Assembly (NCBI RefSeq): GCF_040436365.1
Contig: NZ_AP026369.1
Span: 1-64,000 of the forward strand
Direction of reading: 5' to 3'
DNA: 64,000 bases
Source of the DNA: Hydrogenimonas sp. SS33
GTDB taxonomy: Bacteria > Campylobacterota > Campylobacteria > Campylobacterales > Hydrogenimonadaceae
Shown: positions 33,970 through 41,953 of the stretch, in pieces
Numbering within the stretch: the first letter of the stretch is position 1
How the letters are laid out: each line of letters opens with the position of its first letter
Translations under genes and position numbers: made by a program
The notes under the pieces: model-generated
The model's database searches: none
Seen by the model: the letters and a program-made list of their open reading frames with translations, nothing else
What the model was told of the DNA's origin: nothing

Positions 33970-34479
33970 ATGAAGAAAGGTACCAGAATCGTCAACTTCA
34001 AAACGGGCAAAGTCATTGAAAAAGCAGAACCGGTCGATGAGGAGGTCTATTTCGACGGCGGTGTGATGATTACGGAAACCGACTTGAAAGGTGTTATTAC
34101 CTATGTCAACAAAAAGTTTCGGGAGATGACCGGTTATACCAGGGAAGAATTAATAGGCGCACCCCATAGCATCATCCGCCACCCGGATATGCCGAAAGGG
34201 GCTTTCAGAAGCATGTGGGAAACCCTGAAAGAGGGAAAGATATGGCGGGGATATGTCAAAAATCTCAGAAAAGACGGAAAGTATTACTGGGTTTTGGTCT
34301 ATGTGCAGCCCAAATATGATGAAAACGGGGATGTGGTCGGATATATTGCGGGCAGGAAGGTTGCCGATCCGCAGAAGGTCAAACAAGCGGAGATGATGTA
34401 TGAACAGTTTGGCGCTGACGAGTTGGCGGATGAAGAAATCTTTGACTGCTCATATCATGAATATATAGAAAGCAAGTGA
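33970..34479 (+). CDS. CetB-like single PAS-domain protein, paralogue
   Basis: A 169-residue cytoplasmic PAS protein, clearly paralogous to the one at 3868-4320. It has the same N-terminal pattern (NFKTGK, AEPVDEEVYFDGGVMITETD), KFREMTGYTREELIG and the GYVKNLRKDGKYYW block. It differs by a 25-residue acidic C-terminal tail ending in SYHEYIESK, which could be the partner-binding part. FAD binding and an energy-taxis role with a CetA-like membrane protein are inferred from the family. No chemoreceptor gene is adjacent. It has an AT-rich upstream region. Confidence 0.85.
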   Translation: MKKGTRIVNFKTGKVIEKAEPVDEEVYFDGGVMITETDLKGVITYVNKKFREMTGYTREELIGAPHSIIRHPDMPKGAFRSMWETLKEGKIWRGYVKNLRKDGKYYWVLVYVQPKYDENGDVVGYIAGRKVADPQKVKQAEMMYEQFGADELADEEIFDCSYHEYIESK

Positions 34480-37013: not shown

Positions 37014-37065
37014 AAAAGCGATTATACACCGTGAACCATCCGGAATCGCTGCGGAAGGCTGCCAA

Positions 37066-39150
37066 GTGAAACAATGGAATATACGTTATACCGGTCCCGC
37101 TACATTGCGCCGTTTCGTGGAAAATAAAAATCTGGGTGAGGGAAGAGACGTTCTCGTCCAGATCAGTTGCGCGGTTGAGGAGAGGGAAGAGCTGGAAGCG
37201 ATTCGCCGCATGATACGCAGCGTTATGCCCAAAGCCGTAATCGCAGGTATGGGAAGTGTCATTCAACTGGTGGAAGGCGGTTTTGCGAAGGATGCGGTCT
37301 CTCTGACGATAACACAGTTTGAAAAGAGCCGATGCACACTGGTGGAACTTTCTCTCGATTCGGAAGAGGATTCGGTAGACGAGGCAGTCAGAATGATCGG
37401 TGCCGAAGTGGCGGGGGACTCCAGGTCGGTCCTGTTATTGACGAATGCCATTGCCACCGATATCGAAAAACTGGTCCTGCGATACAAAAAAAGAATCGAC
37501 CTTCCCATATTCGGGGGAATTGCTACGGCAAACCCGGGAGAACATTCGTTTCTGATAAGCAGCCACCGTATCTATACCGAGGATGCGGTGGTGGCTGTCA
37601 TTTTTCACGGAGAGGCGCTGAGGGTGCATATCGACCATCTGTTTGCCTGGGATGCCATCGGTAAAGAATTTACCGTTACGGAAGCCGAAGGCCGCCGCCT
37701 GAAAAGGCTGGACGGTATGACCATCATGGATGTCTATAGCCGTTACTTCGGCCTGATGGAAAAAAAAGATCTTCTTTCGATCGCCCTGGCCCACCCCCTC
37801 ATCAAACGATCCGACGATTTTGGAGAAGTCTCCAGAGTCCTTTTGCGTCTTGATGGTGACGACGGCCTCTATACCGGCTCTTTTAAGGTAGGGGAGAAAG
37901 TCCAGATCGGTTTCGGAAATTACAAAAAAATGGTGGACTGCCTTCGAAAGACTCCGGACAAATATCGGGATATTCCCACCGAAGCGATCTGGATAGATCT
38001 CTGCCTCTCCTATGCGGCGCCCGGGTATACCGACCTTCTCAACCGTTCTCTCGAGATTTTCGGTGCAAATCCGGATGCTTTGCACCTCAATGTGACATTC
38101 GGAGAATTCGGGTATGTCAACGGCACGAACAGCCTTTTGAACAATGTCGTGATCAAAGTTTTTCTCAGTGAAGACGAAACGGCCCGCTTCCCCTATCGGA
38201 AGATCGATCTGGATCTGGATGCGAAAGACCGCCTTCTCGAAACCCTTTCCACTCTTGTCGTGACCAGCGGACAGGAGATTATGGAACTCAACCACTACCT
38301 GGAGGAGGAGGTCGCAAAACGGACCGAGGAGCTCGCCCGTCTCAACCGGATGCTCGAAAAGAAGATCGAACAGGAAGTGCGGAAAAACCGGGAGAAAGAC
38401 AAGATACTTTTCCACCAGTCCAAACTGGCAGCCATGGGAGAGATGCTTCACAATATAGCCCATCAGTGGCGGCAGCCGCTCAACATCATCGCTCTTGTGA
38501 TGCAGGATCTCTCACTGAAAGCGAAGATGGGAACGCTTTCCACAGAAGCGATTCTGCTTGCGGAAAAGAAGATCAACGAAACGCTCAATTACCTCTCCGA
38601 AACCATCGATGACTTCCGAAGTTTCGCTTCCATGGGAGAGGAGAATCAGGGAAGAGCCCGTTTCGAAGCTGGCAGAGCGATTCGGGAGACGCTTCGTCTG
38701 GTTTCGGTCCTTCTGGAAGATGAGAAGGTGCGTCTGCAAATCGATCTTCCCAGGGAAGAGGTTATGGTGGCAGGCAGGGCCAATGACCTCAAACAGGTGC
38801 TGCTGAACCTGGTATACAATGCTATCGACGTATTTCGTGACAGGAGTGTGGAGAACCCAGTTATCCAGATAGGAATGCATGTCGGCAATATGGTTGAGAT
38901 CTACGTCAGAGACAACGGTGGAGGTATCGATGAAAAGGTGATACACAGAATTTTCGAGCCGAATTTTTCCACGAAGTTTCACCGCCACGGTACCGGAGTG
39001 GGGCTCTATATGTCCCGTATGATCGTAAGAAAACGTCTCGACGGTGAAATCGTGGTCAAAAACGTAGCGGAGGGTGCAAAGTTCGAAATCATGCTGCCGC
39101 TTTACGGAAGGCAATCTCTCTGCCGGTTGGAAAATGGAAGGAAACGATGA
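37066..39150 (+). CDS. Cytoplasmic FIST-domain sensor histidine kinase (1)
   Basis: A 694-residue protein. The FIST_N sensor is at about residues 25-220 (VLVQISC, VIAGMGSVIQ, LPIFGGIATANP) and the FIST_C domain at about 225-385 (GMTIMDVYSRYFG, KVGEKVQIGFGNY). A coiled coil spans about 400-450. The kinase core has KLAAMGEMLHNIAHQWRQPL, with H466 the likely phospho-acceptor, and an ATPase domain with NDLKQVLLNLVYNAIDVF, DNGGGI and GTGVGLYMSRMI. No membrane helix is visible, so the signal is intracellular; FIST domains are proposed to bind small ligands such as amino acids. The GTG start follows GGAAGG. It overlaps the next kinase gene by ATGA. Confidence 0.92.
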   Translation: MKQWNIRYTGPATLRRFVENKNLGEGRDVLVQISCAVEEREELEAIRRMIRSVMPKAVIAGMGSVIQLVEGGFAKDAVSLTITQFEKSRCTLVELSLDSEEDSVDEAVRMIGAEVAGDSRSVLLLTNAIATDIEKLVLRYKKRIDLPIFGGIATANPGEHSFLISSHRIYTEDAVVAVIFHGEALRVHIDHLFAWDAIGKEFTVTEAEGRRLKRLDGMTIMDVYSRYFGLMEKKDLLSIALAHPLIKRSDDFGEVSRVLLRLDGDDGLYTGSFKVGEKVQIGFGNYKKMVDCLRKTPDKYRDIPTEAIWIDLCLSYAAPGYTDLLNRSLEIFGANPDALHLNVTFGEFGYVNGTNSLLNNVVIKVFLSEDETARFPYRKIDLDLDAKDRLLETLSTLVVTSGQEIMELNHYLEEEVAKRTEELARLNRMLEKKIEQEVRKNREKDKILFHQSKLAAMGEMLHNIAHQWRQPLNIIALVMQDLSLKAKMGTLSTEAILLAEKKINETLNYLSETIDDFRSFASMGEENQGRARFEAGRAIRETLRLVSVLLEDEKVRLQIDLPREEVMVAGRANDLKQVLLNLVYNAIDVFRDRSVENPVIQIGMHVGNMVEIYVRDNGGGIDEKVIHRIFEPNFSTKFHRHGTGVGLYMSRMIVRKRLDGEIVVKNVAEGAKFEIMLPLYGRQSLCRLENGRKR

Positions 39151-41195
39151 GACAACTGGGATTCGAATACCGCAACAGGATAGATTTCGAAAGCTTTGTC
39201 CGCAGAGAGGGGTTGGACCGTTGCAGGCATCTTCTTCTGCAGGTGAGTTGCCCCAACGGCTCTTCGGAAAAGATGGAGTCGTTACGCAGGGAACTGCATT
39301 CCGCTCTTCCCCATGCGGTCATTGTAGGCGGATCGAGTGCCCTTCAGTTTTCGGGCACGCAAATAAGAGAAGAGGTCACCTTCCTCGGGATTACCGTATT
39401 CGAGAACAGCCGGATCTCCCTTTTCGAGCAGGAGCTGGGAAATGTGCAAAAGAGTGACTACGATGAGATAGCAAAACGTCTGGCGGAAAGGACAAACGGC
39501 GAGACCAAAGGGATATTGCTGCTGAGCAATACTTTTGTGCATGATATGGAGAAACTGATCGTTTCGATCAATCATTATATGGCCCATATCCCGGTTTTCG
39601 GGGGTATCGCTTCGGACAACGAGCCATATCGTCATTTCAAACTTTTCAGCCAAAACCGGGTTTTTGAGGAGGAAGGGATCGTCGCGGTTATTCTGGAAGG
39701 GGAACACCTGCATATCAGCTGCAACCATTTTTTCGACTGGGAACCGATAGGCAGGGAGTTTACGGTAACCAAGGCATCCGGGCGCTATATTTATGAACTG
39801 GACGGGCAGCCGATTATCGACATCTACTCCAAATACTTCGGCCCGCTGGATGAAGCGAAGCTTCTGCAGCTTTCCCTCTCCCACCCCCTCATACGTACCT
39901 CTCCCCTGTTTGGTACGGTTGCAAGGGCTCTGTTGGAGATCGATGAAGAAAAAGGGTTTTTTACCGGAGAGTTTCGGGAGGGAGAGAAGGTACAGATAGG
40001 GTTCGGGCACTACAAACGAATGACCAGTCGCTATGAAATCATCCCCGAAGCCTATCGGCAGATCCCGGCAGAGGCGCTTTGGTTCTATATCTGCATCTCC
40101 TATCAGTATGGCTATATCGATATTCTCAAAGCTTCCGGACAGTTTTACCGGGAAAGCGATAAAGTTTTCGCATTCATTACCTTCGGGGAGTTTACCCATC
40201 GTAATGACAGAAATCTCTTTCTCAACTACTCGTTGACCCGCGTGGCATTGACGGAAGATCTTTCCGCCCGGGCGAAAATCAATCTGATTGAGGTGGAAAG
40301 AGATCCCAAAGATGAGCTTCTCGCGACACTTTCGACACTGATTTCCGCTTCATCGAAGGAGATTACCGATCTCAAACGCCATTTGGAAAGAGAGGTGGAG
40401 GAACGGACGAAAGAGCTGGCCGAACTCAATGCGTCGCTGGAACGGCGAATCGCGATGGAAGTCAACAAAAACAGGGAGAAAGACAAGATCCTTTACCATC
40501 AATCCAAACTTGCTTCCATGGGGGAGATGATCAACAACATCGCCCACCAGTGGCGGCAGCCGCTCAATATTATCGCCCTGGTCATGCAGGACCTGGCCCT
40601 GAAAGCGCATATGGGAAATGTAGCACCGCCGGCTGTGGAGCATGCGGAGAAAAAAGTTCACGAAACCCTGCGCTATCTCTCCGATACCATCGACGATTTC
40701 CGAAGTTTTACGGTTGACAGGCCCGAATATACGCATCCCGGCGCTTTTGAAGTATGCAAAACGGTCAAAGAGATGGTCCGGCTTGTCTCCATCGTTCTGG
40801 AAGACGAAAAGATCGGCCTGAAGCTCAAACTTCCCGAACGGGAAGCACTGGTCAAGGGAAATGCCAACGATCTCAAGCAGGTATTGCTGAATCTGGTCTA
40901 TAACGCCATTGATGTATTCAAAGAGCGGAAAGTGAAAGATGCGAAAATCAGTATTGAAGTGAAATACAACAGGGAAATCACGATCATCGTCAAAGACAAC
41001 GGCGGGGGGATCAACCCGGAAATTGTCGACAAGATTTTCGAACCCTATTTCACCACCAAATACAAAGCGAGGGGAACAGGGCTGGGGCTCTATATGTCTA
41101 AAATGATTGTAGAGAAGAGGCTGAAAGGAAAAATAGCGGCCCGGAATCACCGTTCCGGTGCCGTATTCTGGATAGAGCTTCCGATACTCTCGTAG
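39147..41195 (+). CDS. Cytoplasmic FIST-domain sensor histidine kinase (2), tandem paralogue
   Basis: A 682-residue paralogue of the preceding kinase with the same order of domains. FIST_N has LLLQVSC, VIVGGSSALQ and IPVFGGIASDNE. FIST_C has GQPIIDIYSKYFG and EGEKVQIGFGHY. A coiled coil (HLEREVEERTKELAELNASL) is followed by the kinase core with MINNIAHQWRQPLN (H467), NDLKQVLLNLVYNAIDVF, DNGGGI and GTGLGLYMSKMI. The kinase halves are much closer to each other than the sensor halves, which suggests duplication followed by sensor divergence. The two could form homo- or heterodimers. The ATGA overlap implies coupled translation. A hairpin follows, then the convergent REC-RHH gene. Confidence 0.92.
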   Translation: MRQLGFEYRNRIDFESFVRREGLDRCRHLLLQVSCPNGSSEKMESLRRELHSALPHAVIVGGSSALQFSGTQIREEVTFLGITVFENSRISLFEQELGNVQKSDYDEIAKRLAERTNGETKGILLLSNTFVHDMEKLIVSINHYMAHIPVFGGIASDNEPYRHFKLFSQNRVFEEEGIVAVILEGEHLHISCNHFFDWEPIGREFTVTKASGRYIYELDGQPIIDIYSKYFGPLDEAKLLQLSLSHPLIRTSPLFGTVARALLEIDEEKGFFTGEFREGEKVQIGFGHYKRMTSRYEIIPEAYRQIPAEALWFYICISYQYGYIDILKASGQFYRESDKVFAFITFGEFTHRNDRNLFLNYSLTRVALTEDLSARAKINLIEVERDPKDELLATLSTLISASSKEITDLKRHLEREVEERTKELAELNASLERRIAMEVNKNREKDKILYHQSKLASMGEMINNIAHQWRQPLNIIALVMQDLALKAHMGNVAPPAVEHAEKKVHETLRYLSDTIDDFRSFTVDRPEYTHPGAFEVCKTVKEMVRLVSIVLEDEKIGLKLKLPEREALVKGNANDLKQVLLNLVYNAIDVFKERKVKDAKISIEVKYNREITIIVKDNGGGINPEIVDKIFEPYFTTKYKARGTGLGLYMSKMIVEKRLKGKIAARNHRSGAVFWIELPILS

Positions 41196-41230
41196 TTGAC
41201 TTTTTCAGGGACCCGAAAACAGGGGTTCTG

Positions 41231-41275
41231 CCCATGCTTGGGTGGGAACCGGCCGTTCCCCGCCCCAAACGCTTT
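41231..41275 (-). repeat. Partial multi-hairpin element, copy F, with terminator-like stem
   Basis: TTGGGTGGGAAC pairs with GTTCCCCGCCCCAA (41238-41268). The GCCCATGCTT..GGCCGT..CCCCGC stretch aligns with the central part of copy D in the same orientation. It lies between convergent genes (kinase 2 and the response regulator) and could serve as their shared terminator. It is strongly decayed, so the assignment is tentative. Confidence 0.5.
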
Positions 41276-41288
41276 TGTGGAACCGATG

Positions 41289-41843
41289 TCAGGGTTTGAT
41301 GTCGTAAAAGGCTTTGAGAGCCCGGATGATCATGGCGTTTTTGGAGATGCGCTCCACCTTCGCATCGGCATGGACCCGGTCGTAAAGGTCCATCGGCAGG
41401 GTGATGGAGAAGGTCTTCGTCTCGATCTTCTTGCGTTTGGCGATAGTCTGGTTGATGTTTTTGAGCAGGTCGATGATCTTGTTGGAGTCGATCGGTTTCT
41501 GGATGAAACTGTCGACACCGATTTTGATGGCCTCGGAAATTTTGCTCATGTCGTTGCTGGCGGAGATAATGACGATGATCTGGTCCTTGTTGATTTCACG
41601 GATCTTGCGGGCCAGCTCCAAACCGTCCATACCCGGCAGGATAATGTCGATGAAGACGACGTCGGGCTTCTTCTTTTTGTAGATCTCCAGCGCCTCTTCC
41701 GCCGTAGCGGCCGAATCGACCTCATTGAAAAAGTTGCTGAAGGTGGAAACCATCAGCTCATTCGCCTCCTTCTCGTCTTCGACGACCAGCGCATTCAGCT
41801 TTTTGGTTTCGTTCGCAATTTTGACAATATCATTGTCGATCAT
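41289..41843 (-). CDS. Response regulator: REC domain with C-terminal ribbon-helix-helix
   Basis: A 184-residue protein. The receiver domain (about residues 15-130) has acidic residues VVEDE, phospho-acceptor D66 in VFIDIILPGMDG, the switch ISAS and the conserved K in FIQKP. A linker is followed at 142-182 by a segment that reads like a ribbon-helix-helix DNA-binding domain: the strand KTFSITLP, helix MDLYDRVHADAK and helix SKNAMIIRALKAFYDI. Output domains of this kind are rare on receivers. It is convergent with the FIST kinases and is the only response regulator in the window, so it is their natural candidate partner. An AAGGAG ribosome site precedes the ATG. Confidence 0.85.
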   Translation of the reverse strand: MIDNDIVKIANETKKLNALVVEDEKEANELMVSTFSNFFNEVDSAATAEEALEIYKKKKPDVVFIDIILPGMDGLELARKIREINKDQIIVIISASNDMSKISEAIKIGVDSFIQKPIDSNKIIDLLKNINQTIAKRKKIETKTFSITLPMDLYDRVHADAKVERISKNAMIIRALKAFYDIKP

Positions 41844-41953
41844 TTGTGACTCCTTGGTTTTGTTGTTTTTGAAATAATAACAACAAAAAACATAAAGATA
41901 AATTAACGGAATGAATTATGTGAGTCTCGAAAATGTCACAAGGGAGGATAGTT

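Follow-up and report, generated by a model that had tools for sequence, protein, structure and literature searches.

Two tandem FIST-histidine kinases predicted to serve a single REC-RHH response regulator in Hydrogenimonas

Two overlapping genes for FIST-histidine kinases, A and B, together with the convergent gene of a REC-RHH response regulator, R, probably form a lineage-specific two-component system in Hydrogenimonas sp. SS33 in which both kinases feed the one regulator. By every testable feature the set is a two-component system, and an unusual one, with its ribbon-helix-helix (RHH) output, its FIST sensor fused to the kinase, its convergent overlapping genes and a visible exchange and loss of sensors. 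The comparison of sequences given below lends good support to the existence of a dedicated FIST-kinase/REC-RHH system. The pairing of one regulator with two kinases is genuine in the window, as we call the whole 64-kb stretch of DNA analysed, which is part of a complete 2.25-Mb genome; it is a derived arrangement, confined to a subclade.

In the mechanism that we propose, both A and B would use their cytoplasmic FIST domains to sense an intracellular ligand, heme and/or nitric oxide (NO) standing first among the candidates. The signal would pass through a helical linker to the HisKA-type DHp/CA core, leading to autophosphorylation at His466 of A and His467 of B, and both kinases would hand the phosphate on to Asp66 of R. 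The ribbon-helix-helix pair of R would then bind TGTTA-type sites, those in its own promoter among them. B would be the original cognate kinase and A a tandem addition whose FIST pocket has changed, bringing a second, separate input into R.

Kinase A, a tandem duplicate of 694 aa with a GTG start, is a soluble FIST-histidine kinase encoded at positions 37066-39150 of the forward strand. Kinase B (39147-41195, forward strand; 682 aa, ATG start) is a soluble FIST_N-FIST_C-histidine kinase and represents the copy conserved throughout the genus. The stop codon of A and the start codon of B overlap by 4 bp, ATGA (39147-39150, forward strand), which likely reflects translational coupling. Beyond a gap of 93 bp (41196-41288) lies R (41289-41843, reverse strand; 184 aa), convergent with A and B and the window's sole match to a receiver domain. 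The original prediction had described the overlap, the convergence and the single regulator correctly. On the other side of the kinases (37014-37065), mutY is divergent to them in some Hydrogenimonas species only, and elsewhere hisD is directly followed by B. Upstream of hisD, positions 33970-34479 of the forward strand encode a 169-aa protein with little beyond one PAS domain.

In both kinases, FIST_N (PF08495) and HATPase_c exceed their Pfam cut-offs and HisKA remains sub-threshold; FIST_C falls below the cut-off in B and is not detected by Pfam in A. The predicted FIST_N-FIST_C-kinase architecture is thus borne out for FIST_N, a HisKA-like DHp and HATPase_c in both proteins, and only partly for FIST_C. 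FIST_N of A extends over 37153-37719 (forward strand; aa 30-218), FIST_N and FIST_C of B over 39240-40196 (forward strand; aa 32-350) and HATPase_c of B over 40860-41186 (forward strand). The PF08495 matches indicate the FIST fold, and so does the model of B, which over residues 2-372 resembles FBXO22, a FIST protein from human (Z 20.9, 267 residues, rmsd 3.4, 13% identity). The phospho-accepting His466 of A (38461-38463, forward strand) lies within NIAHQWRQPLNIIALVMQD, and His467 of B (40545-40547, forward strand) begins the R-partner signature HQWRQPLNIIALVMQD; the conserved N/D-G-G-G-I/G-x-G-x-G-L motifs of histidine kinases are likewise present in both.

Between A and B, identity is 38% in FIST_N, 45% in FIST_C, 70% in DHp and 56% in CA. 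The sensor halves have therefore diverged as had been proposed, and to call the kinase halves nearly the same was an overstatement. The Asp of the GGIASD motif, kept by most B copies and by most other FIST domains, is lost in all three known A sequences (GGIATA in the window, GGLATS and GGLASS in the other two); despite this loss, the catalytic residues of A are intact.

The view that next to nothing is known of FIST ligands no longer holds, since FIST serves NosP as a module for heme/NO and CdpA as one for heme (PMC12570481, PMC8846402). Cytochrome cd1-type proteins are encoded in the window's genome, so that the cell probably produces NO, and these proteins, together with a stand-alone FIST gene in the same genome, make heme and/or NO the leading guess for A and B, an assignment by analogy that we hold only tentatively. 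The chances are about even that the FIST domains sense something else, such as amino acids or some other metabolite. The diversity of the FIST family, the missing GGIASD Asp of A and a 100% complete genome (G003) with the kinase-R pair and no cytochrome cd1 match all point that way, against which stand the probable NO production in the cell that carries the window and the heme/NO binding of the experimentally studied FIST proteins that we found in the literature (PMC12570481, PMC8846402). His246 of B was considered as a heme ligand and rejected, for it is conserved in B but not general among FIST proteins. Cys316 of B is present in all 27 sequences that cover its column.

The receiver of R (aa 19-127) matches PF00072 at 2.8e-26 and carries the phospho-accepting Asp66 and Lys116; Asp23, Asp66 and Lys116 are invariant. 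Its RHH DNA-binding domain (41301-41417, reverse strand; aa 143-181, TKTFSITLP...RALKAFY) belongs to a tail in which RHH_1 is matched in 12 of 13 R orthologues (best E 6.2e-5), the R of the window alone falling below the Pfam cut-off. In the model of R, the receiver is accompanied by a long helix and a pair of C-terminal helices, as expected of a ribbon-helix-helix protein, and a sequence search with the RHH tail alone returned no solved structure. Since the strand TKTFSI[ST]LP is conserved in all three families that possess R, one DNA word may be recognised throughout.

The promoter of R (41844-41930, reverse strand) contains a conserved box, CGTTAATTTATCTTTATGTT, at 41889-41908, and a TGTTA-like candidate operator. 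Upstream of R, no 5-mer is more over-represented than TGTTA/TAACA (51 occurrences against 19.5 expected in shuffles, 26 clusters), which outside Hydrogenimonas is found 2.08 times per 120 bp against 0.79 in GC-matched control promoters, figures that concern a word picked after the promoters were seen and an enrichment that could partly reflect promoter architecture. On this evidence R likely regulates its own gene through the candidate operator. The 20-base promoter box matched only its own site in the window's genome, and no regulon is therefore proposed.

At 17 of 17 Hydrogenimonas loci, R and a FIST kinase of the B type are convergent neighbours, flanked by hisD, with or without mutY, on one side and by cinA-ileS on the other, as far as the contigs reach. 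Such a recurrence argues that the pairing is not due to chance. The tails of B and R overlap in antisense by exactly 11 bp at 14 of the 15 measurable loci, the window with its intergenic gap being the sole exception. Named records with R orthologues of 91-96% identity include MAGs labelled Hydrogenimonas. Mean identity within the genus reaches 93% for R, and in B amounts to 81% for DHp, 78% for CA, 60% for FIST_C and 53% for FIST_N; by this measure, regulator and docking region are constant while the sensor drifts. The expected co-occurrence of FIST-kinase pairs with REC-RHH genes thus holds at every Hydrogenimonas locus for a FIST kinase and in just three cases for the A+B tandem. A kinase without the regulator was found at none of the R-type loci.

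The kinases adjacent to R share the sequence HQWRQPLNIxALxxQ[D/E] in the first DHp helix, where other WRQP kinases differ. This stretch of the DHp helix is the surface by which kinases contact their receivers, and its presence in A and B predicts that both serve R. We searched for the signature as a degenerate DNA pattern in 121 Sulfurimonadaceae and 248 Campylobacterales genomes (about 350 in all), which gave 15 and 20 matches respectively, 34 of them distinct. The kinase adjoins R in 33 of the 34 cases; in the remaining one, G263, the two genes are each near a contig end. Among the same genomes, no match occurred in those with a solitary R or without R; because the pattern was built from R-adjacent kinases, only this absence elsewhere counts as evidence. 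The signature misses one B (G151), and the window's genome holds exactly two matches, A and B. The proposal that the kinases feed R accordingly gains from their adjacency, from the signature and from the related kinase that occupies the same slot in another family; its generality is limited by the tandem, which is derived and restricted to a subclade.

Of 249 Campylobacterales genomes, 39 yielded a full-length R; they belong to three families only, namely the Hydrogenimonas family (17 of 18 genomes), the Sulfurimonadaceae and relatives of Thiovulum. R is present in 99 of 121 Sulfurimonadaceae genomes. No kinase accompanies R at most loci of Sulfurimonadaceae and Thiovulum, and a solitary R is the rule in Sulfurimonas and Thiovulum. 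Outside Hydrogenimonas, 61 loci extend for 700 bp or more downstream of R, and 13 of these have kinase sequence, always convergent and within about 60 bp of R. Two of these 13 kinases are apparently broken, their frames (L151:780-2203 and L154:3995-4276) looking frameshifted or remnant, possibly through kinase decay or assembly error.

As R often lacks a neighbouring kinase, it may also use other kinases or act unphosphorylated. Carried to its end, this reasoning would make R mainly an orphan, served by other kinases or independent of phosphorylation, and the adjacent kinase a dispensable accessory that phosphorylates several regulators. The persistence of R with no kinase beside it in most Sulfurimonadaceae and in Thiovulum, with no signature kinase left in those sampled genomes, and the broken kinases of L151 and L154 favour such a scheme, which we nevertheless judge unlikely given that the linkage of kinase and R is absolute in Hydrogenimonas, that signature kinases occur nowhere except beside R and that R has retained its receiver residues.

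A dedicated kinase for R is also compatible with what has become of the sensor outside Hydrogenimonas. Nine R-adjacent kinases scanned there contain one or two PAS domains each, and none of the nine has a Pfam match to FIST. The N-terminal ~60 residues of nine of the R-adjacent kinases outside Hydrogenimonas align with the N-terminus of A and B at an hhalign probability of 96.7 and a score of 55, against a maximum of 16.9 over 200 column shuffles, and the score is still 41 when the first five columns are removed. This stub corresponds to the first beta-alpha-beta unit of FIST_N plus a leader, and it is more easily explained as the relic of an entire FIST than as a precursor of one, which from the alignment makes a replacement of FIST by PAS the likelier direction. 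In Sulfuricurvum sp. PC08-66 (L095/L177), the R-adjacent kinase has PAS only, a FIST stub not being evident. In the genus of G250, it consists of the kinase core alone, without a recognised sensor.

In a kinase tree comparing the R-adjacent kinases with 11 other WRQP kinases, their grouping as one clade was not rejected (AU p 0.47); the long-branched kinase L209 falls among them, and they are hence not a strictly clean clade. On balance we lean towards a REC-RHH class of Campylobacterales with its own kinase lineage, in which FIST was reduced to a ~60-residue stub joined to PAS, the kinase then shrank in one genus to a bare core and was finally lost to leave an orphan R, with a duplication in one Hydrogenimonas subclade that added a second input. 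In such a history, the docking helix and the position of the kinase would have been retained throughout the change of sensor.

The duplicate A forms a single clade (100/100 support) separate from all B and has members in three species (G000, G067, G105); the firm result of the kinase-domain tree is A and B as two clades, not the placement of A among individual B lineages. A contig-edge fragment in G195, where the locus is split across contigs, may represent a fourth A+B tandem. The presence of A in few species, its lost GGIASD Asp and its intact catalytic residues indicate that A is, as read from these sequences, a later and diverged addition to the inputs of the system and not its basic state. 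That A and B constitute an obligate heterodimer with one combined input, as might be suggested by their 4-bp overlap, found in G067 as in the window, and by DHp helices 70-83% identical within a genome, is improbable, because most species carry B alone, so that B works without A, and because A has complete catalytic motifs.

Comparison with known systems emphasizes both the familiar and the unusual sides of the locus. In the NosP/NosK/NosR systems, which provide FIST-based nitric oxide sensing in Burkholderia, Pseudomonas and Legionella, FIST likewise controls a histidine kinase and a receiver protein, and the genes lie together (PMC12570481, PMC8846402). NosP is, however, a separate stand-alone protein, whereas A and B carry FIST and kinase in one polypeptide, and outputs of the NosR type act on c-di-GMP where R has an RHH domain that binds DNA. 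CdpA of Vibrio cholerae (FIST-FIST_C-EAL, heme-inhibited) is likewise a signalling protein of several domains with FIST as its sensory part (PMC8846402), but its output is a phosphodiesterase instead of a kinase. With the classical pairs of HisKA kinase and DNA-binding regulator, the locus shares a DHp-CA kinase, a phospho-Asp receiver and adjacent genes; it differs by the uncommon RHH output and by the convergence of B and R with overlapping tails. The C-terminal strand-helix-helix of R, with its TFSISLP-type strand, resembles the CopG/MetJ/Arc repressors, in contrast to which it is joined to a receiver and not controlled by a co-ligand or toxin partner. We found no described REC-RHH regulator in the open literature, an absence that is not proof.

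FIST-fused kinases are little studied, and here they are paired with one clear candidate regulator, so that one phosphotransfer and a predicted operator could report on the ligand, heme/NO first. Among their relatives, exchange of the sensor and loss or duplication of the kinase can be followed around a nearly constant DNA-binding switch, which makes the locus a readable case of the rewiring of a signalling circuit. The docking-helix signature lends itself to tests by mutation.

Other FIST genes were noticed in these genomes. The stand-alone FIST_N-FIST_C protein of the window's genome (380 aa; C1, about 1.32 Mb, L226:3993-5135, reverse strand) is encoded by a gene overlapping a PAS-PAS-GGDEF-EAL gene (L226:1765-4635, reverse strand), a NosP-like layout separate from A, B and R. 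A fourth FIST protein of 543 aa (L225:1947-3578, reverse strand; C1, about 0.379 Mb) has a C-terminal part without a Pfam match. In two other Hydrogenimonas genomes (L050 in G023, L060 in G184), the gene after a stand-alone FIST gene encodes a WRQP histidine kinase, a NosP-NosK-like arrangement.
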